DNA from: Actinomadura roseirufa
GTDB taxonomy: Bacteria > Actinomycetota > Actinomycetes > Streptosporangiales > Streptosporangiaceae
Length of the DNA stretch: 64,000 bases
Direction of reading: 5' to 3'
Assembly (NCBI RefSeq): GCF_900659635.1
Contig: NZ_CAACVB010000008.1
Span: 1-64,000, forward strand
Part shown: positions 7,484-29,962 of the stretch, piece after piece
Position numbering within the stretch: the stretch's first letter is position 1
How the letters are laid out: each line of letters opens with the position of its first letter
Translations under genes and position numbers: made by a program
Notes under the pieces: model-generated
What the model saw: the letters and a program-made list of their open reading frames with translations, nothing else
Databases searched by the model: none
Told to the model about the DNA's origin: nothing

Positions 7484-7529
7484 GCAGCAGCGGTCCCGCA
7501 CTCAACTCATCCCCCTAGAGCGAGGGCGC

Positions 7530-7727
7530 ATGGAAAAGATCCAATGGCGCAAGTCGAGTCACAGCGGCTCAGGTGCGCAGTCTGACTGCGTGGAGGTTGC
7601 GAACCTCGCCGGAAACATCGGCGTTCGCGACAGCAAGGACCCTCACGGACCCACGATCGCGCTCCCCGCTGCGGGCTTTCGGGACCTGGTGGGGTGGATC
7701 AAGCGTGGGACGTACGACCTGAGCTGA
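7530..7727 (+). CDS. DUF397 protein, 65 aa, second copy
   Basis: A paralogue of the preceding gene: WRKSSHSGSGAQSDCVEVA and VRDSKDPHGPTIALP match nearly residue for residue. It lies 46 bp downstream and probably arose by tandem duplication. Two DUF397 partners for one XRE protein suggest alternative partners. Confidence 0.92.
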   Translation: MEKIQWRKSSHSGSGAQSDCVEVANLAGNIGVRDSKDPHGPTIALPAAGFRDLVGWIKRGTYDLS

Positions 7728-7910
7728 ACTTGGCGTCTTGACTCTGAGAATCCCAACCAGGACGTCAAGCCGCTGGTGTGGGCGTCCCGGGCCTCTTCGT
7801 CGGTGGGCCTGGCGTGCGGGCTTGGCGGCCGAGACCGGCAGGACGGCCGCCAGGACGGGGACCAGGTCAGGGACGGCGCCGAGCGGCTGGGGTGGCCTGG
7901 CTCCGGTGTC

Positions 7911-8723: not shown

Positions 8724-8731
8724 AGCCTGCC

Positions 8732-8960
8732 TTACCGGACATTCAGCGCGGACGGCAGACCCCCACCGGCGGCGAGCCACGGTTCGCCAACGGAGCCCTG
8801 GCCGGACAGGGCGCGGCTGGGGCGATGGGCCACCAACGCCCACCAGCGCAGGGCTTCGGCGATCGCGCCGGGCCATAGTTGCTCGTGTTCCGAACGTGCG
8901 ATTGCCGCGCTCAGTGCGTTCGAGGCGTGCGGGAGGTTCGTGCCAGGGGCGTGTTCATCT
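8732..8960 (-). other. Protein-like open frame without a start codon; possible gene remnant
   Basis: Reverse translation in the frame ending at TAA 8732 reads like protein (ALSAAIARSEHEQLW, AIAEALRWWALVAHRPSRAL). No ATG, GTG or TTG with a ribosome site lies before it, and upstream it runs into the 3' end of the ATPase gene. It is either a remnant or an unusual start. Family not recognised. Confidence 0.3.
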
Positions 8961-11015
8961 AGGGCGGCGGGCGTCCAGTTCCTTTTGCCATAGGAGGTCG
9001 GTCAGGCGTTCTATGCCGGTGGCCAGGTGGCGGCGGTACGTCGTCATCGGCAGGCCCAGGAGTTCGGCCGCGAGTTGCTGGGTTCCGGCGGGGCGCAGGT
9101 AGGTGTGGTGCAGTGCGCGGAAGGCCCGCCGGTCGCGGGGGGACGCCTCCAGGCGGGCGGCGCCGTCGTGGAGGGCGTCGCGGAGGGCGGCGGTGCGCTC
9201 GGACGCGTCGCCGGGCGGGCCCGCCAGGCTCGTCCGGAGCAGGGCGGAGCCGCGCAGGCCGCCGGCTCGGCCGAGGCCGCGCAGGGCGGTCCGGACGGCC
9301 TCGGCGAACTCTTCCCGGTCCAGGAGCGGGTCGCCCGGCGGCGGGCCGGTCTCCCGGTCGGCCATGAGCGACATCCAGGCGAGGGGCGGGACGAGGCGCC
9401 AGTCGTGGCCGTACACGCCGTAGCGGTGGCCGCCGGACTCGACGGCGGCGGACGGGATCGGGTGGTAGTCGAGGTGGCGGCAGCCGTCCGCCCAGAAGCC
9501 CGGGTCGCGGAAGGTGAGGAACGTCCAGGCGAGGAAGGGCGTGGACAGGTACGACCGGGAGAACTGCAAGGTGATGAAGGTCTGGACGCGGGAGATGTCC
9601 TGGTAGGAGTCCCGGTCCATCCAGAAGCGGACGAGCCGGGCGGTCTCCGGTCCGCTCAGCCCGCCGTTGCGGTCCACGTGCGCGGCGACGGCGGCGGCGA
9701 GGGGGTCGGCGCGCCGGTCGCGGTCGTCCATCTCCTCGATCGAGAGCTGGAGCGAGAACCCGGCGGGTTCGCCCTCGGAGTCGCGGACCACCAGGAACCC
9801 TCCGGGCCGGCGTCCCGCCCAGTGGTCGAACAGCCGGGCGGACGCGGGTCCCTCGTGCGCCTCGACCCACGACCGCAAGATCGGGTGGTCGCTCTCCGTC
9901 GCCGTCGTCGCCTGGAGGGTGTCGGCGTCGGTGCCGCCCGGTCCCATCTTCCCGAGGAAGGGCTTCAGCACGGACCTGTCGCGGTGCAGGTAGGCGAAGT
10001 CCAGCAAGAGGTCCTGCCGCTCGGCGGGCGCGGCCCGCTGGAACAGCTCGCGGTAGTGGGCGGCGGCCCGGCGCTGGACGGCGGCGTGCCCGCCCGGGTC
10101 CCGCCAGCGCGCCTCGGCGGCGAGGACCTCCCGGACGAGGTCGTGCGGGTAGAGCCCGCGCGGCCCGTGCTCGATGATCGACAGGCCGCGCAGCCAGTCG
10201 AACAGCGGCGCGGCGGCGGGCCGGTCGAGCATCGCGGCCAGCAGCGGTTCGGTGAGCCCGAGGACCTGGGCGCAGGCTTCGAGCGCGGCCCGGTGATCGG
10301 ACGACGGGACGGTGTCCACGAGGCTTCGCAGCAGGGCGGCGATGACGTCGGGCGCGGCCGGGGCGGCGCCCGGACGGCGGTGGACGCGGGCGTCGGCGAC
10401 CAGGGCCAGGGCCAGCGGATGGCCCCGGGTGAAGTCGAGCGCGGCGTCGCTGCCCGCCTCGGGGAAGCCGCGCGCGGCCAGCATGCGGCGCCCGTCGGCC
10501 GGATCGAGGTTGCCCAGCGGCATCGGCTCCAGCAGCTCGCGCCAGCCGGGGTCGGCGCGCCACCCGAGCGACGGCCGCTCCCGCCCGGACAGGACGGCCA
10601 GCGCGCCGTCCGGCAGCCGGGGCATCAGCTCCTCGCGCAGCCAGCGGTCCAGCGGCGCGAGCGCCTCCAGCGTGTCGATGAGGAGCAGCAGGTCCGGCAC
10701 CTCGCCGAGCGCGGCGAGCGGGTCGTCGCCGGGCCCGCGGCCGAGCTGGACGCGCAGCGCCGCGACCACCGCGGACGCCACCGGGGCGAGCTCGCGGCCG
10801 TCCAGCCGGACTAGGCGGCGGCCCGCCCGTTCCCCCATCCAGCCGAACTGGTGGAGCAGCGCCGTCTTGCCCACTCCCCCGGGGCCGTGGACGAACACCA
10901 CGCGCGGCGCGTCCGGGTCGGCCAGGAGGGTCCTGAACCGCGCGAGTTCCCCGTGCCGGCCGACGAAGCCGCGGCGGCGGGCGGTGGCGAGACGGTCGGC
11001 GAGCCGCTGACCCAT
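8955..11015 (-). CDS. P-loop ATPase with C-terminal HTH-like region, 686 aa
   Basis: The N terminus GFVGRHGELARFRTLL is typical of LAL/STAND-like ATPases. Walker A is GPGGVGKTALL and Walker B is LLLLIDTLEAL. A sensor-like FTRGHPLALALVA follows. The central part (HPILRSWVEAHEGP, FLVVRDSEGEPAGFSLQL) may be a GNAT-like sensor. The last 60 residues (LAAELLGLPMTTYRRHLATG) look like a sigma/HTH domain of uncommon form. The role is probably ATP-dependent signal sensing or transcription control. It is monocistronic, with no obvious target nearby. Confidence 0.75.
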   Translation of the reverse strand: MGQRLADRLATARRRGFVGRHGELARFRTLLADPDAPRVVFVHGPGGVGKTALLHQFGWMGERAGRRLVRLDGRELAPVASAVVAALRVQLGRGPGDDPLAALGEVPDLLLLIDTLEALAPLDRWLREELMPRLPDGALAVLSGRERPSLGWRADPGWRELLEPMPLGNLDPADGRRMLAARGFPEAGSDAALDFTRGHPLALALVADARVHRRPGAAPAAPDVIAALLRSLVDTVPSSDHRAALEACAQVLGLTEPLLAAMLDRPAAAPLFDWLRGLSIIEHGPRGLYPHDLVREVLAAEARWRDPGGHAAVQRRAAAHYRELFQRAAPAERQDLLLDFAYLHRDRSVLKPFLGKMGPGGTDADTLQATTATESDHPILRSWVEAHEGPASARLFDHWAGRRPGGFLVVRDSEGEPAGFSLQLSIEEMDDRDRRADPLAAAVAAHVDRNGGLSGPETARLVRFWMDRDSYQDISRVQTFITLQFSRSYLSTPFLAWTFLTFRDPGFWADGCRHLDYHPIPSAAVESGGHRYGVYGHDWRLVPPLAWMSLMADRETGPPPGDPLLDREEFAEAVRTALRGLGRAGGLRGSALLRTSLAGPPGDASERTAALRDALHDGAARLEASPRDRRAFRALHHTYLRPAGTQQLAAELLGLPMTTYRRHLATGIERLTDLLWQKELDARRPR

Positions 11016-11166
11016 GCGTGGTGGCCCCCCTCGACCACGACAAAGCCTGGCTTTTCACCAGACACCGCCCATCCTTCCGGCATCCGGCCTTACCTGGGAG
11101 GGAGGTCAGTCTCACACGCGGGTGCGGGCCCGTCCGATTCCGGACGGGCCCGCACCCCGGGCATGC

Positions 11167-11574
11167 TCAGACCGTGTCGATGGTGACGTAGTTCAGGCGC
11201 ACGTCGACCGTGCCGTTGTTCTTGGCGCACGCGGTGTAGTCCCCGGGGCCCTGCCAGTTGGCCCAGCCCGCCTGGGTCTGGGCGCTCCAGGACGTCACCG
11301 GGCCGGGCGACCCGCTGCCGGTGACCACGACGCCGGTCTGACCGATGATCTTGAACTTCAGGCCCGGCGTGTTGGCGCTCCCGGTGCCGGTCACCGAGGA
11401 CTCGGCGTGCGCCGCCACGCACGCCTCGCCGCCCGGGTGGATCCAGATGTTGGAGATCGTGCCGCCGCCGGCGAACGCCGTGCCCGGCAGGGCCACCGCG
11501 CCGAGCGCCGCCGCGCCCGCTACCGCCAGCCCGGCCGCGGCGCGCCGTCCCGTCCGCTTCCTGGTCGTGCTCAT
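11167..11574 (-). CDS. Secreted protein, 135 aa
   Basis: A clear Sec signal peptide: basic n-region (STTRKRTGRRAAA), hydrophobic core (GLAVAGAAALGAVALPG), cleavage near TAFA-GGG. The mature part of about 100 residues has two Cys (EACVAAHA, DYTACAKN), probably one disulfide, and a beta-rich look. Family not recognised. The ATG at 11574 with upstream GAGG is preferred over a longer frame whose N terminus does not look coding. Confidence 0.75.
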   Translation of the reverse strand: MSTTRKRTGRRAAAGLAVAGAAALGAVALPGTAFAGGGTISNIWIHPGGEACVAAHAESSVTGTGSANTPGLKFKIIGQTGVVVTGSGSPGPVTSWSAQTQAGWANWQGPGDYTACAKNNGTVDVRLNYVTIDTV

Positions 11575-11749
11575 CGCCTCAGTCCTCTCCACGGCCCCGC
11601 CGGGTCTCCCCGATGGGCCGCCGGTCCTCGGCCGTCCGCCCCGCCGGCGTCCGGCCCGTCCTGCGATGCGAGGAAGGTACGGCCGGGCCGCGTCCACATA
11701 GGAGCCCGTTCTCCCGCCACTTTCCGTCCGATCCGCGCCCACGGGACGG

Positions 11750-12136
11750 TCAGGGCCGGAGCACGTACCGGCCGCGCACCCCGCCCTCGGCCACGGCGCG
11801 GTGGACGTCGGCGACCCGGTCCAGCGGCACGACCGCGTGAATCCGGGCGGGCAACTCGCCGGACGCGGTACGGGCGAGCAGGCCGTCCAGCCGGGCGCCG
11901 TCGGGACGGGAGACCACGACGCGCACGGTGATCCCGCGCTCGGCGGCCGGTGGGGCGCTCGGCTGGACGCCGACGAAGACCCCGCCGTCGCGGACCAGGG
12001 CGAGGCCCCGTTCCTGCATCACCGCGGCGTCGGCGACCGCGTCCCAGCCCGGCTCGGCCCGCGCGGTGAACCCGGCGCCGAGACCGCGCACGAACTCGCC
12101 GTGCGGATACAGCAATGCGGGGGCGGGGGGCTCGCG
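11750..12136 (-). pseudogene. NADP-dependent quinone oxidoreductase (MDR) remnant, C-terminal third
   Basis: The frame matches the end of medium-chain dehydrogenases: GWDAVADAAVM, DGGVFVGVQ, ITVRVVVSRPDGARLDGLLA, PLDRVADVHRAVAEG, VRGRYVLRP. The catalytic domain and the Rossmann GxGxxG are absent. The only start candidates are a TTG at 12115 and none with a ribosome site. A short upstream extension (PAPALLYPHGEFVRGLG) shows the domain is cut inside. Confidence 0.7.
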
Positions 12137-12229
12137 CTGCCGCCCCTGCTTCCGTTCCTCGGGCCGTGAACGGCCCTGCGGTACGGGTCGGGGTTGCCCT
12201 CGATCTGAGGACCGTGCCGGGTGAAGTGA

Positions 12230-12262
12230 AGGGGCCCCCGAGTCCTCCGCCCGGGGGCCCCT
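12230..12262. terminator. Hairpin terminator, 11-bp perfect stem
   Basis: AGGGGCCCCCG / CGGGGGCCCCT with an 11-base loop. It lies downstream of the reverse gene pair at 12.5-13.1 kb and before the dehydrogenase remnant. Confidence 0.7.
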
Positions 12263-12467
12263 CCGCCGTGTCCGCCCGCCGTTGCCTGCCGGGTCGCCCC
12301 CCGGAGTGGCCCTGTGGCGGACACGCGACCCCGACGCCAGGGTTCACCGGGGGCAGATGAACCCACCCGGCAGCGTCGGAGCCAGCCTGCGCGGGGGCGC
12401 CGTCCCCATGCAAGCCGTTCGGATGCGCCTGCCAGCGTCGCGCCGATCTCGAAGGCTCGCGCTGTGC

Positions 12468-12785
12468 CTACGCGCGAGGCAGGTTCAGCGCCCCGCCGAT
12501 CACCTCGGCCGCCTGCTCAGCGGTCACGCCGACCTGCTCGCCGTGGTCGGGTTCGCCGTACCAGACGTAGGCCGACCGGCACCGCGACCACAGGACGTAC
12601 CGGGGCCCGGCGCCGGAGCGGATCAGGTACAGCGTGCTCCCACCGCCCGGACGGCGCGCGTAGACGCCGGAGAACCGCCGCGCCAGCAGGGCCGCCAACT
12701 CGTCGAGACGCTCGGCCGATGAAGCGGACGCGGGGGGATCTGCCGCCTTACCCGTCCCCCCGCGCCCACGCTCGAACTCACTCAC
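12468..12785 (-). CDS. 'Gene B' of a two-gene family of unknown function, 105 aa
   Basis: The GTG start at 12785 overlaps the stop of gene A by 8 bp (GTGAGTGA), exactly as in the copy at 59006. The protein has a low-complexity N terminus (SEFERGRGGTGKAADPPA), a helix (ERLDELAALLARRFSGV), a small beta domain (TLYLIRSGAGPRYVLW, SAYVWYGEPDHGEQVG) and a last helix (AEQAAEVIGGALNLP). I know no named family. Always paired with gene A here. Confidence 0.8.
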   Translation of the reverse strand: MSEFERGRGGTGKAADPPASASSAERLDELAALLARRFSGVYARRPGGGSTLYLIRSGAGPRYVLWSRCRSAYVWYGEPDHGEQVGVTAEQAAEVIGGALNLPRA

Positions 12786-13140
12786 CCGCGCCACTCTCGG
12801 ACGTGGGCGCACCCAGGGTCGTCGCCACCGTGAGAGCCGCGTCCACGATGTGGCTCGCCTCCGCGATCGGCTTGCCCCACGACGTGAAGAACCACGCCCG
12901 TCCGCCATCGTCCTCACGCGGCCCGCACGTGATCGTGTCCGCAGGCTGCGGCGCACCCTCACAGCACCCCGGAAGGTTCGGGTTGATCACGATCAGGCTG
13001 CGCCGCTGAAGAACCGTCTTCAGCCCGTAGACGTGAAGCCTCGACATCAGCGCCCCCAGCCGCGCGTAGGCGTCCGGGTAATTGGTTTGGTCGAGACGCT
13101 CGCTCATGGGCGACTCGGCGTCTTGGCTGACTTGGCTCAT
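12778..13140 (-). CDS. 'Gene A' of the same two-gene family, 120 aa
   Basis: Conserved core shared with the copies at 49859 and 58651: PDAYARLGALMSRLHVYGL, TVLQRR-LIVINP, PGCC, ADTITC, RAWFFTSWGKPIA, HIVDAA. Three Cys in PGCC and TITC could bind metal. AAAGG lies seven bases before the ATG. It is divergent from an XRE-TPR regulator. The AWFFTSWG segment suggests a small beta-sheet domain. Function unknown. Confidence 0.8.
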   Translation of the reverse strand: MSQVSQDAESPMSERLDQTNYPDAYARLGALMSRLHVYGLKTVLQRRSLIVINPNLPGCCEGAPQPADTITCGPREDDGGRAWFFTSWGKPIAEASHIVDAALTVATTLGAPTSESGAGE

Positions 13141-13182
13141 AACCTAACCTTTCGGGCCGTTTTCGCGTCGTTCACGTTCACA

Positions 13183-13229
13183 GCTCCGATCCGTCCGTTT
13201 CGGAGCAACAACCGCTGTCCGTGACGGAC
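13183..13229. promoter_or_regulatory. Two inverted repeats between gene A and the XRE regulator
   Basis: GCTCCGA-N10-TCGGAGC (13183-13206) and GTCCGT-G-ACGGAC (13217-13229) are both perfect. They lie in the 186-bp divergent intergenic region and are candidate sites for the XRE protein. Confidence 0.45.
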
Positions 13230-13326
13230 TGTCCAGCCGAACTCACTGGTGGCAAGCTATGGGCGTGTAGGAGCCACAACCCGGAAAGAAAATCCGGGGT
13301 CATGCTGCGAAGGGTGGACACCCACC

Positions 13327-14547
13327 ATGGCCGATCGGCCCGACGGTCTGACGCCAGGTCAGCGCGTCGCATGGCACCGTGTTCGGCGCGGTATGTCTCA
13401 GACCGTTCTCGCCGGTCTCGTAGACCGCACCGAAGATTGGCTCAGCAAGATCGAGAATGACCGTGCGGTACTCGACCGGCTGTCAGTGATCAGGGCACTC
13501 GCCGATGCGCTGGGCGTCTCCGTCCTCGACCTGATCGGAGAGTCCTCCGCGAACGCAGTTGTGCATGAACCCGCAGGCGTCGCCGAGATCCGTGCCGCGC
13601 TCATGGACTACCGGCAACTCTCTCCGCTGCTCGCCGCGATCGAAGCCGAGGGCCAAGCGCCCAGGATCGAGCACTTGCGCCGGGACGTCGTTGAGGTCAT
13701 GGACGCCTACCAGCGGTCGAAGTACGCCCACATGCTCAGACGCGTTCCTGAACTGCTCACCCAGACCCAACTCGCTGCTCGCGAGTACACCGAGGACGAC
13801 CGGATCACTGCCGAACGCATGGCCGCTCTCGCCGGCCAGTCAGCCGCGATGATCCTCACGAAGCTCGGTCAATCCGATCTGGCGTGGATCGCAGCCCAAC
13901 GTGGCCTCTCCGCTGCCGAACGGTCAGGGGACCCCGTCGTAATCGGGTCTCTCTTCCGTTCTGCCGTGCACGCGCTCCACACGCACAACCGGTTCAAGGA
14001 CGCCACGGCCATGGCCCGTCGAGCGGCGGACTACCTACGCCGGGAACACGTTCCCACCGAGCCGAGGATCGTTTCCATCTACGGCTCGTTGCTCCTGCCC
14101 GGAGCGGTGGCCGCCGCCCGTGCGGGCGACCGGGGAACGGCAGCGGACTACCTAGACGAAGCCGAGGGCATGGCCGCGTTGATCGGCTCGGACTCCAACC
14201 GGCTTTGGACCGCGTTCGGACCGACCAACGTGCGCATTCATCGAGTGACCACGGCTATGGCCCTGGGAGATGTACAGGTCGCGCTGGATCTCATCCCCGG
14301 CATCGATACCACGGGGCTGCCGACCGAACGCCGCGTTCGCCACTCGCTCGAAGTCGTCAACGCCTATCACGCCCGGAACAAGGTCGGCCGGGCGATCGAT
14401 GAGCTTCTCACCGCCGAACGTCGAGCACCCGAACAGGTCCATGAGCACGTCATGAGCCGCCAACTCGTCCTCAGTCTCCGAGCCACCACGCTGGGCAAGC
14501 GGAGCCGCAGCCTCGCGAGCCTTGCTCGCCGGATGAGGCTGATATAG
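13327..14547 (+). CDS. XRE-family regulator with TPR-like domain, 406 aa
   Basis: A helix-turn-helix lies near residues 9-63 (TPGQRVAWHRVRRGMSQTVL, then VDRTEDWLSKIENDRAVLDR). The rest is helical repeats (LAWIAAQRGLSAAERSGDP, ATAMARRAADYLRRE, GTAADYLDEAEGMAALIG) of the type seen in sensor regulators. The ATG at 13327 sits in a small GGTGG/CCACC hairpin that may limit initiation. It is divergent from gene A/B, and the Nudix gene follows after 22 bp. Confidence 0.85.
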   Translation: MADRPDGLTPGQRVAWHRVRRGMSQTVLAGLVDRTEDWLSKIENDRAVLDRLSVIRALADALGVSVLDLIGESSANAVVHEPAGVAEIRAALMDYRQLSPLLAAIEAEGQAPRIEHLRRDVVEVMDAYQRSKYAHMLRRVPELLTQTQLAAREYTEDDRITAERMAALAGQSAAMILTKLGQSDLAWIAAQRGLSAAERSGDPVVIGSLFRSAVHALHTHNRFKDATAMARRAADYLRREHVPTEPRIVSIYGSLLLPGAVAAARAGDRGTAADYLDEAEGMAALIGSDSNRLWTAFGPTNVRIHRVTTAMALGDVQVALDLIPGIDTTGLPTERRVRHSLEVVNAYHARNKVGRAIDELLTAERRAPEQVHEHVMSRQLVLSLRATTLGKRSRSLASLARRMRLI

Positions 14548-19986: not shown

Positions 19987-21465
19987 ATGCACCGGATACT
20001 GGCGGTGGCCCTGGCGGGGACCATGGGAGCGGCACCGCTCGCGGTCACCGCGGGGGCAGGGGCGGAGACGGGAAGCGCGGCGAGAACGGGAGCCGCCGGG
20101 GACGATCCGGTCGCGGCCGTCCGGATCGATCCACCGGCGTGGCGGCCGTGCGGGGAGCACGGGGCCGAGTGCGGGTCGGTCCGGGTACCGCTCGACTGGA
20201 GCCGCCCGCGCGGACGGCGGATCACGCTGGCGGTGAGCCGGCTCCGGGCCGCCGCCCCGTCCCGCCGGATCGGCGCGGTGTTCTTCAACCCCGGCGGCCC
20301 CGGCGGGAAGGCGATGGCGATCGTGCGGGACGTCCCCGGTGTCTTCCCCGAGGAGTTGCGGAACCGGTTCGACGTCATCGGCCTCGATCCGCGCGGCGTC
20401 GGCGCGAGCGTCCCCGCGATCGCCTGCGAGAAGCCCACGCTCGACCCGCGGATCGGGCAGTTCCCGCGGACCGCGGCGCAGTACCGGCGGCTCGTCTCCT
20501 ATAACCGCGAGGTCGGCGCGGGGTGCCGCCGCGCGACCGGCCCGCTGATCGACCACGTCGACACCGTCAGCGCGGCGCGCGACGTCGAGGCCGTCCGGGT
20601 CGCGCTCGGCGGCGGGAAGCTGAACTGGCTGGGACTGTCGTACGGCACCCTGCTCGGCGCCACCTACGCCGAGCTGTACCCGCACCGGGTGAGGGCCGCG
20701 GTCCTGGACGGCGCGGTGGACCACTCCCTCCGGCCCCGGCGCATGGTCGCCGACGAGGCCGCGGCCACCGAGGAGGCGTTCGCCCGGTTCGCCCGCTGGT
20801 GCGACGCCGACCGGGCCTGCGCGATGCACGGGCGGGACGTGCGGGCCGAGTACCGCGCGCTGCTGGCCCGCGCGCGCCGGCATCCGGTCCCGGCGAAGGG
20901 ACATCCGGAGGGCGTCACCGCCGAGCAGATCGGCTACGGCGTCTACTCCCTGCTCACGGTGCCCGCCCAGACACGGGTGCGGCTGGCCGGGGCGCTGGCC
21001 GGCGCGACCGCGGCGGTCCCCGACGCGGCGGGCTTCGCCGAGCCGGTGGACAGCTCGCCCGCCTACCGGGCCATCACCTGCCACGACTTCCCGTCCGACG
21101 TCCGCGGTCCCGCCGACCTCGCCGCCCGCGAGCGGGAGGCGAACCGGGTCGCGCCGACCACCGGCGGCTACGTCGAGGGCTGGGACGTGCAGGCCGGATG
21201 CATCGGCTGGCCCGTCCGCGCCGCGAACCCGTGGGGGCCGACGCCGGTGCGCGGCGCGCCGCCGCTGCTGGTCGTCAGCGGTGAGAACGACCCGGCCACG
21301 CCGTACCCGTGGGGCGTCGGGCTGGCCCGGCAGATCCAGGGCTCGCGGCTGCTGTCCTGGCGCGGCACCGGGCACACCGCCTACCTCAACGACGAGGCCG
21401 TGCGGGGCCAGGAGATCCGGTATCTGATCGATCCGAATTCACCGTTGGGGACGGTCCGCGGGTAA
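19987..21465 (+). CDS. Secreted TAP-like alpha/beta hydrolase (tripeptidyl aminopeptidase family)
   Basis: 492 aa with a Sec signal (MHRILAVALAGTMGAAPLAV). The oxyanion loop FFNPGGPGG, the nucleophile elbow GLSYGT (S218), the acid in SGENDPATPY and the histidine in GTGHTAY match the Streptomyces SlpD/Tap family, which removes N-terminal peptides from secreted proteins. Cys residues (PCGEHGAECG, AIACEKP) suggest disulfides outside the cell. GGAGG lies shortly before the ATG. Confidence 0.88.
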   Translation: MHRILAVALAGTMGAAPLAVTAGAGAETGSAARTGAAGDDPVAAVRIDPPAWRPCGEHGAECGSVRVPLDWSRPRGRRITLAVSRLRAAAPSRRIGAVFFNPGGPGGKAMAIVRDVPGVFPEELRNRFDVIGLDPRGVGASVPAIACEKPTLDPRIGQFPRTAAQYRRLVSYNREVGAGCRRATGPLIDHVDTVSAARDVEAVRVALGGGKLNWLGLSYGTLLGATYAELYPHRVRAAVLDGAVDHSLRPRRMVADEAAATEEAFARFARWCDADRACAMHGRDVRAEYRALLARARRHPVPAKGHPEGVTAEQIGYGVYSLLTVPAQTRVRLAGALAGATAAVPDAAGFAEPVDSSPAYRAITCHDFPSDVRGPADLAAREREANRVAPTTGGYVEGWDVQAGCIGWPVRAANPWGPTPVRGAPPLLVVSGENDPATPYPWGVGLARQIQGSRLLSWRGTGHTAYLNDEAVRGQEIRYLIDPNSPLGTVRG

Positions 21466-21558: not shown

Positions 21559-22503
21559 GTGAGCAACCAGAAGCGCATTGAGATCGCCTGGCCTGGAGTG
21601 GGCGTTACCGTAACCGCCGACCTCGACGACCGTAACGCCGTCCTGGCGCAGGCGGTCTGGGACGCCCTGCCGTACCGGAGTCTCCAGGGCCACGCTCTGG
21701 TGGCAGGGCACCACCTCTACCACGTCGCCCCGATTCACGACATCCTGCACCTGCCCGCCGCGTACCGGGTCGACCGCCGGACGGTCCCGGACGGCACCGT
21801 GTTCGCCTCCCGCCTCCAGCACCTCGGGCTGAAGTACGGCCCGCTGACCGAGCCCATGACCGCGACGCCCATCGGCCAGGTCGCCGACGCGGACATCGAC
21901 GCGCTCACCGACGCCGGGCGCGCGGTGTGGGAGTCGGTCTACACCTCCAAGAAGCCGCTGGTCGTCGAGGTGCGCCGCGCGGGCGAGACGAGCGGGCACC
22001 GCCTGCCGCGGCTCACCGCCGCCGACCCCGCGACCAACGCCCTCGTCGAGGACGTGTACGCCGAGACCGCGCGGATCTGGCTGGAGCCGCCGGAGGAGCT
22101 CGTCGACCTGCACGACGGGCGCATCAGGTCCGGCGCGGGCAGCTACGGCACGGTCCTGACGACGCTGCTGTTCGTCAACGGCGAGACGAGACCGCTCGGC
22201 TACAACTCCTACAGCGGCCTGGTGCGGGCCGCGCACGAGGGCATGCCGATGGAGTCCCTGCGGCACATGGCGCGGACGGTCGTCGGCGTCCCGGCGGAGT
22301 TCCTCGCCTACTGCGGCCTGGAACGGCTGGGCGCGTTCACCGAGCGGGTCCTCGACCGGCTGGAGCACCTGGACGTCCGGGACGACTTCGTCGCGCTCAT
22401 GGCCCACATGGCGCTGTACCTCAACTGCCTGGGCGGATGGAACCTGCACCTGTTCCCCTGGCAGGTCGGCGACCATCTCCGCCAGCCCGAGGCGGCCCAG
22501 TGA
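21559..22503 (+). CDS. Cucumopine-synthase-like protein (cyclophilin-like domain plus C-terminal helical bundle)
   Basis: 314 aa. The N-terminal part (RIEIAWPGVGVTVTADL, ALPYRSLQGHALVAGHHLYH, VAPI) matches the DUF3830/cyclophilin-like fold of cucumopine synthase. The C-terminal part (GLVRAAHEGMPMESLRHMA, HMALYLNCLGGWNLHLFPW) matches its helical bundle. Cucumopine synthase condenses L-histidine with 2-oxoglutarate into an imidazopyridine opine. The GTG at 21559 follows TATTGC by eight bases, suggesting a leaderless start; a TTG at 21547 is less likely. It is the first gene of a four-gene overlapping operon. Confidence 0.7.
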   Translation: MSNQKRIEIAWPGVGVTVTADLDDRNAVLAQAVWDALPYRSLQGHALVAGHHLYHVAPIHDILHLPAAYRVDRRTVPDGTVFASRLQHLGLKYGPLTEPMTATPIGQVADADIDALTDAGRAVWESVYTSKKPLVVEVRRAGETSGHRLPRLTAADPATNALVEDVYAETARIWLEPPEELVDLHDGRIRSGAGSYGTVLTTLLFVNGETRPLGYNSYSGLVRAAHEGMPMESLRHMARTVVGVPAEFLAYCGLERLGAFTERVLDRLEHLDVRDDFVALMAHMALYLNCLGGWNLHLFPWQVGDHLRQPEAAQ

Positions 22504-23627
22504 CCAGAGCGGGCACCGGACCGAAGGGGACGGCGCTGACCAGCGCCGACGCGGCCGTGATCGGCGGCGGGGTCATCGGGCTGTCGGTCGCCTGCCACCT
22601 CGCCGAGGCGGGCGTCGGCACCGTCCTGCTGGAACGGGACGAGCTGGGCTCCGGCGCGTCCCGGGCCACCGCGGACATGGTGCGGACGTTCTTCCCCGGC
22701 AACCCCGTCAGCTCGGCGATGGCCGTGCGGAGCCTCGCGGTGTACCGGTCCTTCGAGGCGCGGACCGGGGTGGCGCTGCCGCTGCGGCGGGTCGGCTACC
22801 TCGTCGTGTACACCACCCGCGAGCAGATCGCGGCGTTCGAGGCCGACCTGCCCGCCCAGCGCGCCGCCGGGGTGGACGTCGCGCTGGTCGGCGCGGCCGA
22901 GGCCCGGCGGCGCAACCCGCTGCTCGGCGGCCTGGACGTGCTGGCCGCGGCGTGGTCGCCGGACGCGTACGTGTCGGACACCGCCGCGATCGTCGGCGGC
23001 TTCGCGGCGGCGGCCCGGCGGGCGGGCGCGCGGCTGCTGACCGGGCGTCCCGTCACCGCGGTCGACACGACCGCCGGGCGGCTGGACACCCCGGCGGGCC
23101 CGGTGCGGGCGGGCGCCGTCATCTGCGCCGCCGGAGCCTGGTCGGCGCCGCTCGCCCGCTCGGCCGGGGTGGACCTGCCGTTCACCGAGCCGGTCGAGCA
23201 GGAGCTGCTGACCACCGGCGACCCGCCGCCCGGCGTCGTCGTGCCCGGCATCCCGATGACGCTCGTGGCGGCGAGCGGCCTGCTCGTCCGCAAGCGCGGG
23301 AACGGGCTGCTCGTCGGCATGGGCTATCCGGGCCCCGAGCGGGACGGCTGGCGGGCGCGGGTGCGCGAGCGGCTCGACGCCACGTACCCGGCGCTGGCGG
23401 GGGTGGAGCTGCGGACGGCCTTCACCGGCGTCCGCGACGCCAGCCCCGACCGGACGGCGTTCATCGGCCGGCTGCCCGGCGCGACGCCGTTCCTGTACGC
23501 CGCCGGGTTCTCCGGGCACGGCTTGTGCACCGCCCCCGCGGCGGGTGAGCTGGTACGCGACCTGTACTTCGGCCGGGAGCCGGAGGTCGACGCCCGGCGC
23601 CTGGCCGCCGGACCGGAAAGGGTGTGA
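22500..23627 (+). CDS. FAD-dependent amine/amino-acid oxidoreductase (DAO family)
   Basis: 375 aa. GTG start overlaps the previous stop (GTGA). The FAD-binding GGGVIG (G22-G27) is followed by VLLERDELGSGASRATADM, where the Ser/Ala-rich loop often contacts flavin, and near the end by SPDRTAFIGRLPG and GFSGHGLCTAPAAGELV of the sarcosine/D-amino-acid oxidase family. It probably oxidises a secondary amine or amino-acid-like intermediate, fitting a cyclic amine made by the upstream enzyme. That link is inference. Confidence 0.85.
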   Translation: MTRAGTGPKGTALTSADAAVIGGGVIGLSVACHLAEAGVGTVLLERDELGSGASRATADMVRTFFPGNPVSSAMAVRSLAVYRSFEARTGVALPLRRVGYLVVYTTREQIAAFEADLPAQRAAGVDVALVGAAEARRRNPLLGGLDVLAAAWSPDAYVSDTAAIVGGFAAAARRAGARLLTGRPVTAVDTTAGRLDTPAGPVRAGAVICAAGAWSAPLARSAGVDLPFTEPVEQELLTTGDPPPGVVVPGIPMTLVAASGLLVRKRGNGLLVGMGYPGPERDGWRARVRERLDATYPALAGVELRTAFTGVRDASPDRTAFIGRLPGATPFLYAAGFSGHGLCTAPAAGELVRDLYFGREPEVDARRLAAGPERV

Positions 23628-24853
23628 GGTGCGTGGAACCCGCACGTTTCGTCCTGGAGCCCGCCCCCGTGGACGTGCACGCCGAGAGCGCGCGGCTGCG
23701 GGAGGCCGGGCCCATCGTGCCGGTGGAGGTGGAGGGCGTGCGCGCCTGGGCGGTCACCCGGTACGCGACGCTGGAGACCGTCCTCACCCATCCGGATCTG
23801 TCCCGTGACATCCGGCACTGGGCGCTGGAGGGCCGCCGGTGCCTGCGGCCGGACGGGTCGCTCGCCCGGATCGTCGCGGTCTCCACGATGCTCAACGCCG
23901 AGGGGGACGAGCACCGGCGGCTGCGCGGCCCGCTGACCCGGGTCTTCTCGCCCCGCCGGGTGGGCGTCCTGCGCCCGCGGGTCGAGGAGATCACCGCGCG
24001 GCTGGTCGGCCGGCTGGCCTCCATCCCCGCCGGCCCGGACGACCCGGTCGACCTGCGCGCGGAGTTCGCCCACCCGCTGCCCTTCGAGGTCATCTCCGAC
24101 CTCCTGGGGATCCCGCCCGAGCGGCGGGACGAGCTGTACGAGCTGGACCGCGTCAACACCACGACCCGCGACGACGACGCCACGGTCGCCCGTGCCCGCG
24201 CCGCGCAGGACGACCTGCTCGGCGAGGTCGTCGCCGAGCGCCGTCGCGCCCCCGCCGACGACCTGATCAGCGTGCTGGTCGGCCAGGAGGGCGAGGCGCT
24301 CACGACCCGGGAGGTGCTCGACACCGTCGAGGAGGTGTTCGTCGCCGGGCACGTCACCACGGTCAACCTCATCACCAACGCCACCCGCCTGCTCCTGACC
24401 GTGCCCGGTCAGCTCGACCTGATCCGGTCCGGTGCGCGGCCGTGGAGCGCCGCCGTCGAGGAGGCCCTCCGCCTGGAGTCGCCGATCCGCCACTTCCCCA
24501 TGCGCTACGCCGTCCGGGACGTGCGCATCGACGGTGTGCTGATCCGCAAAGGGGAAGCGGTCCTCGGCTGCCACGCCTCGGCCGGACGCGACCCGGGCCG
24601 GTACGGCGACCGAGCCGCCCGGTTCGACGTCGCCGCCGAGACGGAGACGCACCTGTCCTTCGGCCTGGGCCGCCATTTCTGCCTGGGCGCGCCCCTGGGC
24701 CGCCTGCAAGGGGAAGTGGCGCTGGACGCGCTGTTCACGGCGTTCCCCGACATGGCGCTCGCCGCGCCGCCGGAGGATTTACGGAACCTGAACACCGTCG
24801 TCGCCCTCAGCACCCGGACCCTCCCCGTCCGGCTCGGCCGGAGGGTCCGATGA
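23624..24853 (+). CDS. Cytochrome P450 with atypical I helix
   Basis: 409 aa. Heme loop FGLGRHFCLG (ligand C353), ExxR at E280-R283 (EEALRLESP), and an I-helix AGHVTT at 241-246. Most bacterial P450s have AGxxT preceded by Asp or Glu (AGxD/ETT); here that acidic residue is Val, so proton delivery to the heme may differ. GTG start overlaps the previous stop; a GTG at 23633 is possible. No ferredoxin gene is adjacent, so redox partners come from elsewhere. Confidence 0.9.
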   Translation: MRCVEPARFVLEPAPVDVHAESARLREAGPIVPVEVEGVRAWAVTRYATLETVLTHPDLSRDIRHWALEGRRCLRPDGSLARIVAVSTMLNAEGDEHRRLRGPLTRVFSPRRVGVLRPRVEEITARLVGRLASIPAGPDDPVDLRAEFAHPLPFEVISDLLGIPPERRDELYELDRVNTTTRDDDATVARARAAQDDLLGEVVAERRRAPADDLISVLVGQEGEALTTREVLDTVEEVFVAGHVTTVNLITNATRLLLTVPGQLDLIRSGARPWSAAVEEALRLESPIRHFPMRYAVRDVRIDGVLIRKGEAVLGCHASAGRDPGRYGDRAARFDVAAETETHLSFGLGRHFCLGAPLGRLQGEVALDALFTAFPDMALAAPPEDLRNLNTVVALSTRTLPVRLGRRVR

Positions 24854-26334
24854 GCGCCGGGCTCGGCGCGGCCGTCGTCGCCGGGCTCCGCGAGGCCGGG
24901 TCGCGCGAGGTGCTGGTCCGCGGAGACCGGCGGCTGACGGGCGAGGAGGTGCTGGCGATGGTGGCGACGGCGACCGCCCGGCTCACGGCGGCGGGCGTCC
25001 GGCCCGGCGACACGGTCGCCTGCCTGTACGGATCCGAGCTGGAGTCGCCCATCGGCCGGGTGGTGGCGCTCGCGCTCGGGTTACGGTACGTCCACGTGCT
25101 GCGCGGCGTGCCCGTCACGGTGGCGGGCCAGGTCATGCGGACTCTGCGGACGTCGGCGCTGCTGTACGAGCCGTCCCGGGGGGACGAGGTGGCCGCGCTG
25201 CTGGAGGCGTGCCCCGTCCCGATCGTCCGGGGTCTGGACGCGGACCTCTTCGGGCCCCCGCGGGAGGGCGTGGTGACCGCGCCGGACCTCGGCGACTCCC
25301 CCGAGATCGCCTGGGTCACCTTCAGCAGCGGTTCGACGGGCGAGCGCAAGGCCGTCGCCTACGAGCACCGCGCCGAGGCGGCGCAGTACAGGGTGGCGCG
25401 GGCGGTGTTCGGGCGCGAGCGCTGGCGGCTCCTGGTGATCCCCCTCCCCCGCTACCTCCCGGACGTCTTCGTCCTGTGGGCGCTCGCGAGCGGCGGCACC
25501 GCGATCCTCGAACCGGACGGGCGGCCGGAACGGCTGGCCGACGTCGCCGAGCGGGAGAACGTCACGCACCTGATGGCGGGCTGCCCGGCCGAGCTGTACG
25601 AGCTCGCCGACCATCTGGAGACGCGGCCCGCCGACCCGCCGGACCTGCGGCTGGTGATCTACGGTGGCGCCGGTCCCGTCCCGTCGCGCGGCGCGCGGGC
25701 GGCGCGGCGGCTGGGCGCGGTGCTGATGCAGACGTACGGGACCTCCGAGGGCGGCCTGCTGACCTCCCTCGGCCCGCGCGACCACGCGCGCCCGGACCTG
25801 CTCGCCTCCGTCGGCCGGGCCGTCCCGGGCGTCGAGCTGCGGATCCGCGGCAAGGACGGCGCGGACCTGCCGAGCGAGGCGGTCGGCGAGATCTGGGTCC
25901 GCACCGACCAGCGGATGCGCGGCTACGTGGACGCCGCGATCGGCACCGCCCCCGTCACCGGCGACGGCTGGGTGCGCACCGGCGACCTCGGTCACCTGGA
26001 TTCGTCCGGATACCTGTTCCTGCTCGGCCGGACGGAGGAGGGCCTTCCGGAGGGCCTCCACTCCCGCCCGATCGAGGACGTCCTCACCGGGCATCCGGCC
26101 GTGATGGGCGCGGCGGTGTTCGCCGTCCCCGGTCCCGCCGGGCCGGTGCTGGAGGGCGCCGTCGTCGCCCGCGAGGGACAGCGGCCCGACCTGGACGAGC
26201 TGCGCGGGCTCGTCCGTGCCTCCCTCGGCCACGACCATGAGCCCCGCCGCCTCCACCTCGTCGACGAGATCCCGTGCGGCCCGTCCGGCAAACCGAACAA
26301 ACCCGCCCTGACCTCGCGATTCACCCACCCTTGA
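24850..26334 (+). CDS. AMP-dependent acyl/aryl ligase (ANL superfamily)
   Basis: 494 aa. ATG overlaps the P450 stop (ATGA). The P-loop A3 is FSSGSTGERKAV, A5 is MQTYGTSEGG, A7 is WVRTGDLG, and the A10 lysine is in CGPSGKPNKPAL. It activates a carboxylate as acyl-AMP for amide or thioester formation. There is no carrier protein or condensation domain nearby, so it may join the acid to a free amine or CoA. The last gene of the operon, followed directly by a GntR-type operator for the next unit. Confidence 0.9.
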   Translation: MSAGLGAAVVAGLREAGSREVLVRGDRRLTGEEVLAMVATATARLTAAGVRPGDTVACLYGSELESPIGRVVALALGLRYVHVLRGVPVTVAGQVMRTLRTSALLYEPSRGDEVAALLEACPVPIVRGLDADLFGPPREGVVTAPDLGDSPEIAWVTFSSGSTGERKAVAYEHRAEAAQYRVARAVFGRERWRLLVIPLPRYLPDVFVLWALASGGTAILEPDGRPERLADVAERENVTHLMAGCPAELYELADHLETRPADPPDLRLVIYGGAGPVPSRGARAARRLGAVLMQTYGTSEGGLLTSLGPRDHARPDLLASVGRAVPGVELRIRGKDGADLPSEAVGEIWVRTDQRMRGYVDAAIGTAPVTGDGWVRTGDLGHLDSSGYLFLLGRTEEGLPEGLHSRPIEDVLTGHPAVMGAAVFAVPGPAGPVLEGAVVAREGQRPDLDELRGLVRASLGHDHEPRRLHLVDEIPCGPSGKPNKPALTSRFTHP

Positions 26335-26437: not shown

Positions 26438-27253
26438 ATGACTCGGATGGCCGTTGCCCAGATCGGCGCGCAGGCGGCGCGTCCCGCCGCGAACCTCGTG
26501 CGCGTCGAGTCCAAGATCCGGCAGGCCGCCGCCGCGGGGGCCGCGCTGGTCGTGTTCCCCGAATGCGCCCTCACCGGCTACATGCTCGGCAGCCGGGAGG
26601 AGGCCGAGGCGGCGGCGCTGCGCGCGGACGGCCCGGAGGTCGCGGCGCTCACCGCGCTGTGCGCGGAGCTCGGCGTCCACGCGGTCGCCGGGCTGCTGGA
26701 GCGCGACGGCGGGATGCTCTACAACACGGCCCTGCTCATCGGCCCGGACGGCGTCGCCGGACGGCACCGCAAGCGGCACCTGCCGCACCTCGGCGCGGAC
26801 CGCTTCACCGACGAGCCCGAGCCCGGCGGCCCCTCGGTGTTCGAGACGCCGTTCGGCGCCGTCGGCATCGAGATCTGCTACGAGGTCCGCTTCCCGGAGG
26901 TGGCGCGGACCCTCGCGCTCGCCGGAGCGGACGTCATCGCCGTGCCCACCAACTGGCCCGTCCAGTCCCGCAACCTCGCCGAGCAGTTCACGGCGGTCCG
27001 GGCGGCGGAGAACCTGGTCTACCTGCTCGCCGCCAACCGTCCCGACCGCGAGGGGGACGCGGACTTCGTCGGGCTCAGCCGCATCGTCGACCCCTCGGGC
27101 AGAGTGCTCGTGACGGCGGGCGAGGACGGCGAGGACCTCCTGGTCGCCGACATCGACGTCGAGCGGGCACGCGACAAGAGCATCGTGTTCGAGGAGGACA
27201 CCTTCGTCGTCCGCCCGTTCGCCGACCGCCGCCCCGAAACGTACGCGTTGTAA
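26438..27253 (+). CDS. Carbon-nitrogen hydrolase (nitrilase-superfamily amidase)
   Basis: 271 aa. Catalytic triad E42 (VFPECALTGY), K112 (HRKRHLP) and C147 (GIEICYEVRFPE). The family hydrolyses amides or carbamoyl groups to acid plus ammonia. GGAGG lies ten bases before the ATG. The upstream operator groups it with the catabolic regulon rather than with the operon that precedes it. Substrate unknown. Confidence 0.9.
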   Translation: MTRMAVAQIGAQAARPAANLVRVESKIRQAAAAGAALVVFPECALTGYMLGSREEAEAAALRADGPEVAALTALCAELGVHAVAGLLERDGGMLYNTALLIGPDGVAGRHRKRHLPHLGADRFTDEPEPGGPSVFETPFGAVGIEICYEVRFPEVARTLALAGADVIAVPTNWPVQSRNLAEQFTAVRAAENLVYLLAANRPDREGDADFVGLSRIVDPSGRVLVTAGEDGEDLLVADIDVERARDKSIVFEEDTFVVRPFADRRPETYAL

Positions 27254-27383: not shown

Positions 27384-28379
27384 TCAGGCGGCTTCCCGGG
27401 CGCGGCGGTGGTCCCAGGCTCCGTTCGCCACGATCGCCACCAGCAGGACGACGCCGTAGGCGATCTGGAGTACGAACGACGACACCTGCAGGAAGCTCAG
27501 CAGGTTCTGGATCAGGAACAGCGAGGCGCCTCCGGCGGCGGCACCGAGCAGGCCACCGCGTCCGCCGGAGAGGCTGACCCCGCCGAGCGCCACGCCCGCG
27601 ATGGCGACCAGCGTGTAGGACGGCCCCACCGTCGCGTCGGCGCCGCCGAGAACCGCCGCGATGAGCAGCCCGGCGACACCGGTGATGGCGCCGCCGATCA
27701 CGTAGGCGGTGAAGCGCGTCCACGCGACCGGGACGCCCGCGGTGTAGGCCGCCCGGTCGTTGCTGCCCGAGGCGCGCAGGTTGCGGGCGAAGGCGGTGCG
27801 CAGGACCGCCTGCCACGCCACCGCGAACAGCACGAGGACGAGGAGCACGCCGGCGGTGCCCGCCGCGGACCCGCTCGCCAGGTCGGCGAGCGCGGGCGGC
27901 ACCGCGCCGCCCGGCGTCGGCATCAGCCGGGTGGCCAGGCCCGTGTACACCAGGTACGTCCCGAGCGTCGCGATGATCGGCGGCACCCGCAGGCCCGTCA
28001 CCAGCGCGCCGTTGACGGCGCCCGCCAGCGCTCCCGCGCCGACCGCGATCGCGACCAGCAGCGGGACGCTCTCGACCCCGCGCGGCACGACGATGCCGCC
28101 GATCAGCACGGAGATCAGCCCGGCGGCGGGCCCGACCGACAGGTCGATCCCGCCGCCGCCGGACATGACGACGGGCGCCTCCGCCATCGCCAGCAGGACG
28201 AGCGGCAGCGCGCTCGCGGCGGCGAGCTGCCAGCCGCCCTGGGCGAGGAAGCCGGGGTTCACCACGGCCGTCAGCGCGACGAGCCCGGCCGCCAGCACGA
28301 CGGCGGGCACGAAGTACGGAACGGTGCGCGCCGGGGCGCGGGTGCGCGCCGCCGCCGGTTCCACGGTCGACGCGGTCAT
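27384..28379 (-). CDS. Ribose-type ABC transporter permease 2
   Basis: 331 aa, about nine hydrophobic segments, of the BPD_transp_2 family. Family motifs: GGGGIDLSVGPAAGLISVLI and GGVSLSGGRGG. The ATG at 28379 overlaps the stop of the ATPase gene (ATGA). Last gene of a four-gene importer operon transcribed leftward from 32.25 kb. Confidence 0.9.
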   Translation of the reverse strand: MTASTVEPAAARTRAPARTVPYFVPAVVLAAGLVALTAVVNPGFLAQGGWQLAAASALPLVLLAMAEAPVVMSGGGGIDLSVGPAAGLISVLIGGIVVPRGVESVPLLVAIAVGAGALAGAVNGALVTGLRVPPIIATLGTYLVYTGLATRLMPTPGGAVPPALADLASGSAAGTAGVLLVLVLFAVAWQAVLRTAFARNLRASGSNDRAAYTAGVPVAWTRFTAYVIGGAITGVAGLLIAAVLGGADATVGPSYTLVAIAGVALGGVSLSGGRGGLLGAAAGGASLFLIQNLLSFLQVSSFVLQIAYGVVLLVAIVANGAWDHRRAREAA

Positions 28380-29962
28380 CGCGCCGCCTCCTTTCCCTCG
28401 TGCCGTCCCGCGTGTCCGTCCGGCTGGCCGAACATCGCGTGCAGGACGGCGTCGTGGCCGAGCCGGTCGCCGCCGAGGACGGCGAACACCGACCGGTCCC
28501 GGAAGACCGCCACCCGGTCGCACACCGCCACCAGCTCATCGATCTCGGTCGAGAGCAGGACGATCGCGACCCCCTCGGCGGCGAGCCCGCGCAGCAGCGC
28601 GTACATCTCCACCTTGGTGTTCTGGTCGACGCCCCGGGTGGGGTCGTGCATGACCAGGACCTTCGGTTCCAGGGCGAGCCACCGGCCGACCAGGACCTTC
28701 TGCTGGTTGCCGCCGCTCAGCCGCTCCACCGGGCCGTCGGGGTCGGCGGCGGTGACCCGCAGCCGGCGGCCGAACTCGGCGGTGATCTCCCGTGCCCGGC
28801 GCCGGGAGTACAGCCCGAACCGCGCGATGCGGGGCAGCACCGCCAGGACGAGGTTGTCGACCACGGGCAGGGAGGCGAACAGCCCCTCCGCCTGCCGGTT
28901 GCCGGGCACGAAGACGACGCCGTCGCCGACGGCGCGCCGGTAGCCGCGCACGCGCGCCCAGCCGTCGCCGGTCCGCACGCTCACCTCGCCGGTGGGGCTG
29001 TCGCGCAGCCCGGCGAGCACCCGCAGGAACTCGCCGCCGCCGTGCCCCTCCAGCCCCGCCACACCGAAGATCTCCCCGTCCCGCACCTCCAGCGCGACGG
29101 GCTCGGACCGGGCGGTCACCCGCACGTCCCGGCAGCGCAGCCGCACGTCCCCGGTGGTCGCGCCGGTGTCCCGAGCCTTGCCCGGTGCCGGGTCGGCCGG
29201 TCCGGCCGTCCCGGTCCGCGGGCTCATCAGCCGCAGCAGCCGCGCCGTCGTCGCCTCCTTCTTGGCGAGCGTCGCGACGCTCTCGCCGAGCCGCAGGACG
29301 GTCGCGCTGTCGCAGAGCAGCTCCAGCTCCTCCATCCGGTGCGAGACGAACAGGACGCTCCGCCCGTCGGATCGCCGCCGGTCGATGAGCTGGAAGAGCC
29401 GGTCGCGCGCCTCCAGGTCGAGGGCGGAGGTGGACTCGTCCAGGATGAGCAGCTTCCAGGGGCGCACCAGGGCGCGGGCGATCGTCACGAGCTGCCGGAC
29501 GGCCAGCGACTGGCCGCGGGCGGGCCGGTCGAGCAGCCGCGGGTCGAGGCCGAGCGCCTCGAACGCCTCCTCGGCGGCGTCCCGCCCGCCGCCGGCGGCG
29601 CGGCGCCGGAAGAGGCCGTCGCCGCCGAGCCGCACGTTGTCGCGCACCGACAGCTCGTCGGCGATCAGCGTCTCCTGGAAGACCGTCACGACGCCGTGGT
29701 CCTGCGCGGCGCGGGGCGAGTGGAACACGGCCGGCTCGCCCGCGACCGCGAGGTTCCCCCCGGACGGCACGACCACCCCGCTGAGCACCTTCACCAGCGT
29801 GCTCTTGCCGGAGCCGTTCTCCCCGATGAGGCCGTGGACCTGACCGGGCATGATGTCGAACGAGCAGTGCCGCAGCGCGACGGTGCTCCCGTAGGAATGC
29901 CGCACGTCACAGACCGAGACCAGTGGTTCCGGGCCGGCCGCGCGTTCCTTCGTCGATGGCAT
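28376..29962 (-). CDS. Ribose-type ABC transporter ATPase (two nucleotide-binding domains)
   Basis: 528 aa. The first domain has Walker A GENGSGKST and Walker B LLILDESTSAL, with a divergent signature (ARGQSLAVRQLVTIARAL). The second has a degenerate Walker A (GLEGHGGGE), a good signature LSGGNQQKVLVGRWL and VLVMHDPTRGVD. This is the RbsA/MglA architecture. GAGGGAAG precedes the ATG. Confidence 0.93.
   Translation of the reverse strand: MPSTKERAAGPEPLVSVCDVRHSYGSTVALRHCSFDIMPGQVHGLIGENGSGKSTLVKVLSGVVVPSGGNLAVAGEPAVFHSPRAAQDHGVVTVFQETLIADELSVRDNVRLGGDGLFRRRAAGGGRDAAEEAFEALGLDPRLLDRPARGQSLAVRQLVTIARALVRPWKLLILDESTSALDLEARDRLFQLIDRRRSDGRSVLFVSHRMEELELLCDSATVLRLGESVATLAKKEATTARLLRLMSPRTGTAGPADPAPGKARDTGATTGDVRLRCRDVRVTARSEPVALEVRDGEIFGVAGLEGHGGGEFLRVLAGLRDSPTGEVSVRTGDGWARVRGYRRAVGDGVVFVPGNRQAEGLFASLPVVDNLVLAVLPRIARFGLYSRRRAREITAEFGRRLRVTAADPDGPVERLSGGNQQKVLVGRWLALEPKVLVMHDPTRGVDQNTKVEMYALLRGLAAEGVAIVLLSTEIDELVAVCDRVAVFRDRSVFAVLGGDRLGHDAVLHAMFGQPDGHAGRHEGKEAAR

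Follow-up and report, generated by a model that had tools for sequence, protein, structure and literature searches.

In a 64,000-nucleotide stretch of the Actinomadura roseirufa genome (contig NZ_CAACVB010000008.1, positions 1 to 64,000; hereafter the window), a four-gene operon at 21559-26334 is likely to direct the synthesis of a modified 1-substituted β-carboline-3-carboxylic acid from tryptophan. In the pathway we propose, the first enzyme would condense L-tryptophan with a carbonyl compound (a 2-oxoaldehyde or a 2-oxoacid) to give a tetrahydro-β-carboline-3-carboxylate. The second, akin to flavoenzymes that oxidize N-substituted amino acids, would take the new ring to the dihydro and then to the aromatic β-carboline; the third, a cytochrome P450, would oxidize either the side chain at C1 or the ring; and the fourth would adenylate the 3-carboxylate and join it to a nucleophile, an amide being the probable outcome. 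Relatives lacking the fourth gene would stop at the free 3-acid, the form in which the nonocarbolines occur in Nonomuraea. The protein families, gene order, co-occurrence and conserved residues are observed, and from them we infer the carbonyl partner, the step of the second enzyme, the position oxidized by the P450, the nucleophile used by the ligase and the final product.

The four open reading frames lie on the + strand and every start overlaps the preceding stop by 4 bp, as the initial annotation of this DNA had described. Gene 1 (21559-22503, 314 amino acids, GTG start, with an alternative TTG start at 21547) encodes a putative McbB-type Pictet-Spenglerase (PSase), made of an N-terminal half and a helical C-terminal half that matches Pfam Cucumopine_C, as predicted, at 151 bits against a cut-off of 27. 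Gene 2 (22500-23627, 375 amino acids, GTG start) encodes an oxidoreductase of the DAO family (204 bits), dependent on flavin adenine dinucleotide (FAD), which is our proposed tetrahydro-β-carboline aromatase. It is followed by gene 3 (23624-24853, 409 amino acids, GTG start), a cytochrome P450 (p450, 67 bits) nearest to CYP154A1, and by gene 4 (24850-26334, 494 amino acids, ATG start), an ANL ligase (AMP-binding, 145 bits; AMP-binding_C, 45 bits) from a divergent subclade nearest to the amide bond synthetases (ABSs). We compared 52 loci of this clade: the window, 11 others from its own genus, 38 from Nonomuraea, one from Thermocatellispora (genome G682) and one from genome G406. Thirteen of them (the window, L019-L023, L067-L070, L075, L081 and L098) have the full order PSase-DAO-P450-ligase on a single strand, so the order is conserved elsewhere and the arrangement does not reflect chance. 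With its 4-bp overlaps and this recurrence, the four-gene operon is real. As a fixed unit of four genes, however, it does not hold: the ligase is optional, being present in 18 of the 52 loci (10/12 in the genus of the window, 8/38 in Nonomuraea, where the other 30 lack it), and the core therefore consists of three genes, PSase-DAO-P450.

Within this core the DAO gene is in the locus in 51/52 cases, the remaining genome (G035) carrying it on another contig, and the P450 gene in 50/52; for neither is the strand always the same. Other variants include a ligase gene preceding the P450 gene (L025), loss of the P450 (L087) or of both P450 and ligase (L041), a divergent P450 gene (L027, L029 and L030) and a divergent DAO gene (L027 and L030). 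The four proteins have diverged in step, their pairwise distances giving Pearson coefficients of 0.87-0.95. Gene starts in the relatives were chosen automatically, which makes spacing counts approximate.

As judged from its sequence, gene 1 is a McbB-type β-carboline (tryptophan) PSase. Its best solved relative is PDB entry 3x27 (309 bits), with which it aligns end to end in the same domain order (residues 5-308 against 23-331). The N-terminal halves of the two proteins align with each other, although the DUF3830 profile, which the initial annotation had suggested searching, gave no Pfam match to gene 1 at E values up to 0.1. Residues R72, H87 and E97 of McbB, which we take to be active-site residues, are kept in the window protein and in 75 of 75 McbB-type sequences. 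The numbering was checked on the protein of locus L042, whose sequence coincides with that of the 3x27 fragment and which shares 48% identity with gene 1 over 309 columns. The 3x27 entry is the structure of McbB (PMC11015028), an enzyme reported to use tryptophan in the Pictet-Spengler step of marinacarboline synthesis and to catalyze decarboxylation and ring oxidation as well (PMC7024544); Glu97 of McbB is named in a further report (PMC9366743). Homology to McbB thus points to tryptophan as the probable substrate of gene 1, which is the single match of its kind in its own genome. In a tree of gene 1 proteins, drawn open, the McbB-like rows L042-L044 (83/87) separate from the 52 rows of the window clade (91/91), a split that is only moderately supported, given that the tool warned of long branches.

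The initial annotation had instead framed gene 1 in terms of opine metabolism. In a true cucumopine pathway the enzyme would cyclize histidine with 2-oxoglutarate. The name of the Pfam family fits such a role, and two relatives on Ri plasmids of Agrobacterium cucumeris share E97 with McbB and with the window protein. Yet these two are 29% identical to gene 1 (over 299 and 138 columns), as against 48% for McbB, with a gap at R72 and a lysine at H87, and identities to 15 plasmid matches other than those of Nonomuraea range from 26.6 to 30.3%. The Ri-plasmid genes, annotated as DUF3830 family and hypothetical protein, also keep different company: hutH, hutC and an ATP-binding cassette (ABC) transporter. 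No hut-type family was detected among the eight window genes scanned, and the ABC permease of the window (27384-28523, opposite strand) does not recur beside relatives of the operon. On identity, on the R72/H87 region and on gene context we rejected the opine reading, which we regard as highly improbable. It is also very unlikely that the same chemistry is applied here to another aromatic amino acid, such as tyrosine or dihydroxyphenylalanine (DOPA), to form a tetrahydroisoquinoline. Pictet-Spenglerases as a class accept other arylethylamines. However, McbB is reported to use tryptophan (PMC7024544), and its three residues are kept in all 75 sequences.

The PDB entries nearest to gene 2 are the sarcosine oxidase-like 1y56_B (119 bits), dimethylglycine dehydrogenase (about 96 bits) and glycine oxidase (76-83 bits), and its nearest NCBIfam models, both far below cut-off, are ThiO and N-methyltryptophan oxidase. 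Arg312 of gene 2, conserved in 49 of 51 sequences, aligns with an arginine of glycine oxidase 4ysh that presumably binds the substrate carboxylate. Together, these relatives and Arg312 suit a cyclic N-substituted amino acid as the likely substrate, without proving it. A five-sequence AlphaFold model of the protein was poor (pLDDT 56.1) and was not used. DAO copies with at least 60% identity occur in exactly the genomes that carry gene 1, namely 12/65 in the genus of the window and 38/54 in Nonomuraea, the next DAO proteins reaching at most 46%. Under random pairing this co-distribution has P values of 2.5e-13 and 4.7e-14, respectively, both of which are overstatements given the relatedness of the genomes.

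The pairing of PSase and DAO extends beyond the window clade. Cucumopine_C is found in 21 of 295 sampled genomes of a second genus (g45), which is probably Streptomyces by its pyridindolol-type loci, and the DAO gene adjoins gene 1 in 20/20 of the loci compared there (of 21, G915 being left out). Only the PSase-DAO pair is common to this genus and to the window clade. Three of these loci (L143, L146 and L148) have PSase, DAO, AMP-binding and aldehyde dehydrogenase frames (assigned by Pfam for L143), with a frame on the other strand that by eye is phosphatase-like; their proteins are 64-67% (gene 1) and 53-55% (gene 2) identical to those of the window. Frame sizes equal those of a published cluster, with 370, 352 and 453 amino acids for the DAO, AMP-binding and aldehyde dehydrogenase proteins of L143 and 322 for the PSase of L148; the likeness is one of gene order and sizes. 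That cluster, putatively responsible for pyridindolol in Streptomyces sp. ID38640, is described as listing a PSase beside a 370-residue FAD-binding oxidoreductase and an AMP-binding enzyme, its PSase sharing 49% identity with StnK2 of the streptonigrin pathway and its FAD enzyme 39% with StnP2 (PMC7955054). Its authors proposed a PSase step with tryptophan, followed by aromatization by an FAD and/or F420 oxidoreductase (PMC7955054). Given that a PSase-FAD-oxidase pair has already been proposed in print, an aromatase role is the natural reading for gene 2. The two systems would part ways at the 3-carboxyl, which is thought to be reduced in the pyridindolol cluster by the 352-residue AMP-binding and 453-residue aldehyde dehydrogenase proteins (PMC7955054), whereas in the window a P450 is followed by an ANL ligase of two domains. 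The pyridindolol cluster is also reported to be absent from antiSMASH output (PMC7955054), in keeping with the earlier suggestion that rule-based finders may miss such loci.

Other loci with the pair are decorated differently. A carbamoyltransferase-like frame accompanies it in 15 of 21 loci compared, with a frame filter that passes over some genes: L041 (genome G406, 5914-9844), for which alone the name has a Pfam basis, and L131-L142, L144 and L147. In L149 and L150 (gene 1 at 50% identity) a DAO gene stands on each side of the PSase gene, and in L149 an aminotransferase and a frame that looks like a methyltransferase, without a Pfam match, follow.

Within a β-carboline route, gene 2 might alternatively supply the carbonyl partner by converting an amine or an amino acid into, for instance, an oxoaldehyde or an oxoacid, and leave the ring alone. 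The presence of glycine oxidases among its relatives, the retention of the aligned glycine oxidase arginine in 49/51 sequences and the reported ability of McbB to oxidize the ring itself (PMC7024544) are compatible with this function. Its nearest family members, however, include enzymes whose substrates are amino acids with a secondary or tertiary amine, such as sarcosine, dimethylglycine and N-methyltryptophan, and so resemble a tetrahydro-β-carboline, and aromatization was also the proposal for the related pyridindolol cluster (PMC7955054). We therefore consider a carbonyl-supplying DAO rather unlikely and keep ring aromatization as the proposed function of gene 2.

Gene 3 has CYP154A1 (1odo, 282 bits) as its nearest solved structure, and its heme cysteine and ExxR motifs are intact. 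Its I-helix (window positions 24338-24361) reads AGHVTT and lacks the usual acid before the threonine. Of 51 P450 sequences (a set that contains L105, a locus outside the 52), 45 including that of the window have Val, Ala or Ile at this position, and six (L026-L030 and L093) keep Glu. Loss of the acid may alter oxygen activation. L105 (G623:C114, about 9000-14150) is itself unusual, with a PSase-like gene whose two domains are in swapped order. Encoded nearby are a methyltransferase domain, an amidohydrolase, a GFO/IDH oxidoreductase and a P450 that shares 55% identity with gene 3.

The closest PDB relatives of gene 4 are the ABSs ShABS (8pyy, 8pyx and 8ppp) and McbA (6sq8 and 6h1b), at 283-289 bits against 114 for the next entry. 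Foldseek returned McbA or ShABS structures at all of ranks 1-15 for the predicted structure of gene 4 (pLDDT 72.6), which was used for fold ranking only. The catalytic lysine close to the C terminus (K483 in McbA, K492 in ShABS) is kept, GKPNK in the window aligning with GKPDK. Two other positions depart from McbA. At D201, which is proposed to activate the amine and whose change to Ala is reported to lower activity (PMC10804368), the window has Tyr and all 18 subclade ligases have Tyr, His, Phe or Val, while L042, L044 and ShABS have Asp. At E400 there is a gap in 18/18 subclade ligases, where the three controls have E, D and E. The A8 segment spans 16 residues in 17/17 complete subclade ligases versus 19 in L042 (McbA), L044 and ShABS; these are aligned segment lengths, preferred to a regex control that was not strict enough and counted short loops as full-length, and the truncated L087 ligase was left out. 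In the ligase tree, drawn open, the 18 subclade proteins cluster together (93/100) and the three ABS controls fall outside. As regards its first step gene 4 thus resembles an ABS, but with its sequence at D201, E400 and A8 we do not assign it as a McbA member. L087 (G583) is perhaps a decaying copy, for its ligase frame stops short within the A8 region and a search for a P450 relative at the locus found none.

Comparison with the marinacarboline system places the operon in a known class. Like mcbABC of Marinactinospora thermotolerans, it combines a PSase of the same family (48% identity) with a ligase of the ABS type. Locus L042 (G298) appears to be the mcb locus itself or another that encodes an identical McbB, because its protein matches the 3x27 fragment at every residue; 20 checked residues of its ligase fit the McbA numbering, and a pyridoxal phosphate (PLP) decarboxylase is encoded there too. 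At L042 the ligase gene comes first and the PLP decarboxylase gene after, whereas the window has a DAO and P450 core and a ligase without D201 and E400. No relative of the gene 2 DAO or the gene 3 P450 was found in the 19 kb of L042 searched at E 1e-15. Conversely, a scan of eight genes, those of the operon and some that surround it, showed no PLP decarboxylase, and the five Pyridoxal_deC matches in the genome all lie on contigs other than that of the window (C8). Flavin amine oxidases of the Amino_oxidase family occur near the McbB/McbA-type genes at L042 (14775-16304, about 3 kb from the ligase) and L044 (5579-6949, about 1 kb). Among other systems, the cyanogramide pathway of Actinoalloteichus is reported to have an ABS (AcABS) and a spirooxindole-forming P450, CyaH (PMC10804368, PMC8260726), and KslB of kitasetaline to use tryptophan with 2-oxoglutarate (PMC12513458). 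We found no published gene cluster of exactly this kind in a search of the open-access literature, most subscription papers falling outside it. The new small-molecule pathway proposed in the initial annotation is therefore new only in part: the operon is recurrent, but β-carboline synthesis, as far as its McbB-type PSase and a ligase nearest to McbA/ShABS tell, is a class known already, and what sets the locus apart from mcb is the DAO and P450 core together with the ligase lacking D201 and E400.

Several observations weigh against the β-carboline pathway in the form we propose. The McbB-like loci L042, L043 and L044 (48-50% identity) have no relative of the gene 2 DAO at E 1e-15 in the stretch searched, and a separate DAO is not strictly needed if, as reported, McbB oxidizes the ring itself (PMC7024544). 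The missing P450 acid makes a plain hydroxylation less certain, and the substitutions at the two McbA residues leave amide formation uncertain. We nonetheless judge that the annotation was right to guess at ring aromatization and carboxyl activation, as steps that would be carried out by genes 2 and 4.

Within the family of A. roseirufa 56 of 341 genomes match gene 1, three of them only weakly (G480, G532 and G600); matches are strong in 12/65 genomes of its own genus, 38/54 of Nonomuraea and G682, and stand at 48% identity in G298 and G433. A class-wide sample yielded matches in 11/394 genomes, four of them weak. In a further family (f19) one of 35 genomes matched (G332) and no additional locus was gained; its McbB-like gene (L034/L043), 50% identical, has one in-frame TGA within the match. 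From the 52 loci we left out duplicates or short versions of longer loci (L001-L005, L007-L018, L031-L035 and L045-L066), the McbB-like comparison loci L042-L044, and weak, partial or swapped-domain matches (L006, L036-L039 and L104-L106), and L107 (Nonomuraea gerenzanensis) stayed outside the neighbour analysis.

Four flanking genes of the window (METE, ABH, CN_hydrolase and the permease) do not recur beside relatives of the operon at E 1e-15, except for one weak ABH match in L074, and ABH (19987-21465) and CN_hydrolase (26438-27253) were accordingly rejected as operon members. A scan for the sigma-70 consensus gave no site upstream of gene 1; its sole promoter-like match lies downstream of the operon, in the 103 bp between gene 4 and the carbon-nitrogen hydrolase gene. 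Among the 30 largest neighbour groups none, apart from the operon genes, spans both the genus of the window and Nonomuraea, with a frame filter that misses some genes. Conserved flanks in Nonomuraea, among them genes that by eye encode a mannose-6-phosphate isomerase, an ABC ATPase and a regulator resembling TetR, were set aside, as they do not reach the genus of the window. This context bears on whether the operon could be catabolic and degrade an aromatic amino compound. Amine oxidases, P450s and acyl-AMP ligases all occur in catabolic pathways, and some Nonomuraea loci have a TetR-like regulator (seven loci) or an ABC ATPase (four loci) nearby, by names read from the sequence. Against this, gene 1 belongs to the family of a bond-forming PSase, and, with the frame filter used, none of the 30 largest neighbour groups beyond the operon genes accompanies it in both genera. 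Degradation is hardly credible as the function of this operon, and synthesis of a β-carboline remains our preferred explanation.

Published data offer a possible product for the relatives. Nonocarbolines A-E of Nonomuraea sp. 1808210CR are reported to be 1-acyl-β-carboline-3-carboxylic acids, with a hydroxyl on the chain in C and D and an acetoxy group in E; their authors suggested a McbB-like route and stated that the gene cluster remained to be found (PMC7148486). They come from a genus in which 38/54 genomes carry the PSase-DAO pair, and they are free acids, whereas the window also has a ligase. Since the ligase-less Nonomuraea loci (30/38) fit free 3-acids and the P450 fits oxidation of the chain, the PSase-DAO-P450 core is a candidate source of these orphan compounds, a link we infer. 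More speculatively, and as a possibility we hold only tentatively, the core would be the missing nonocarboline locus itself, and the gene 4 subclade, with D201 replaced by an aromatic residue, His or Val and the A8 loop three residues shorter, would have a novel second half-reaction. It would join the activated β-carboline acid to another nucleophile than McbA does, or by another route, giving with the acid-less P450 a new decoration at C3 and C1.

Our findings would give the orphan nonocarbolines candidate biosynthetic genes, which 38 of the 54 Nonomuraea genomes searched possess, and the link is directly testable. They also point to the pair of PSase and DAO as the common core of loci decorated in different ways, by P450 and ligase, by a carbamoyltransferase or by carboxylate reduction. 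Finally, an ABS-like subclade without the presumed amine-activating residue may be of interest for biocatalytic amide synthesis.

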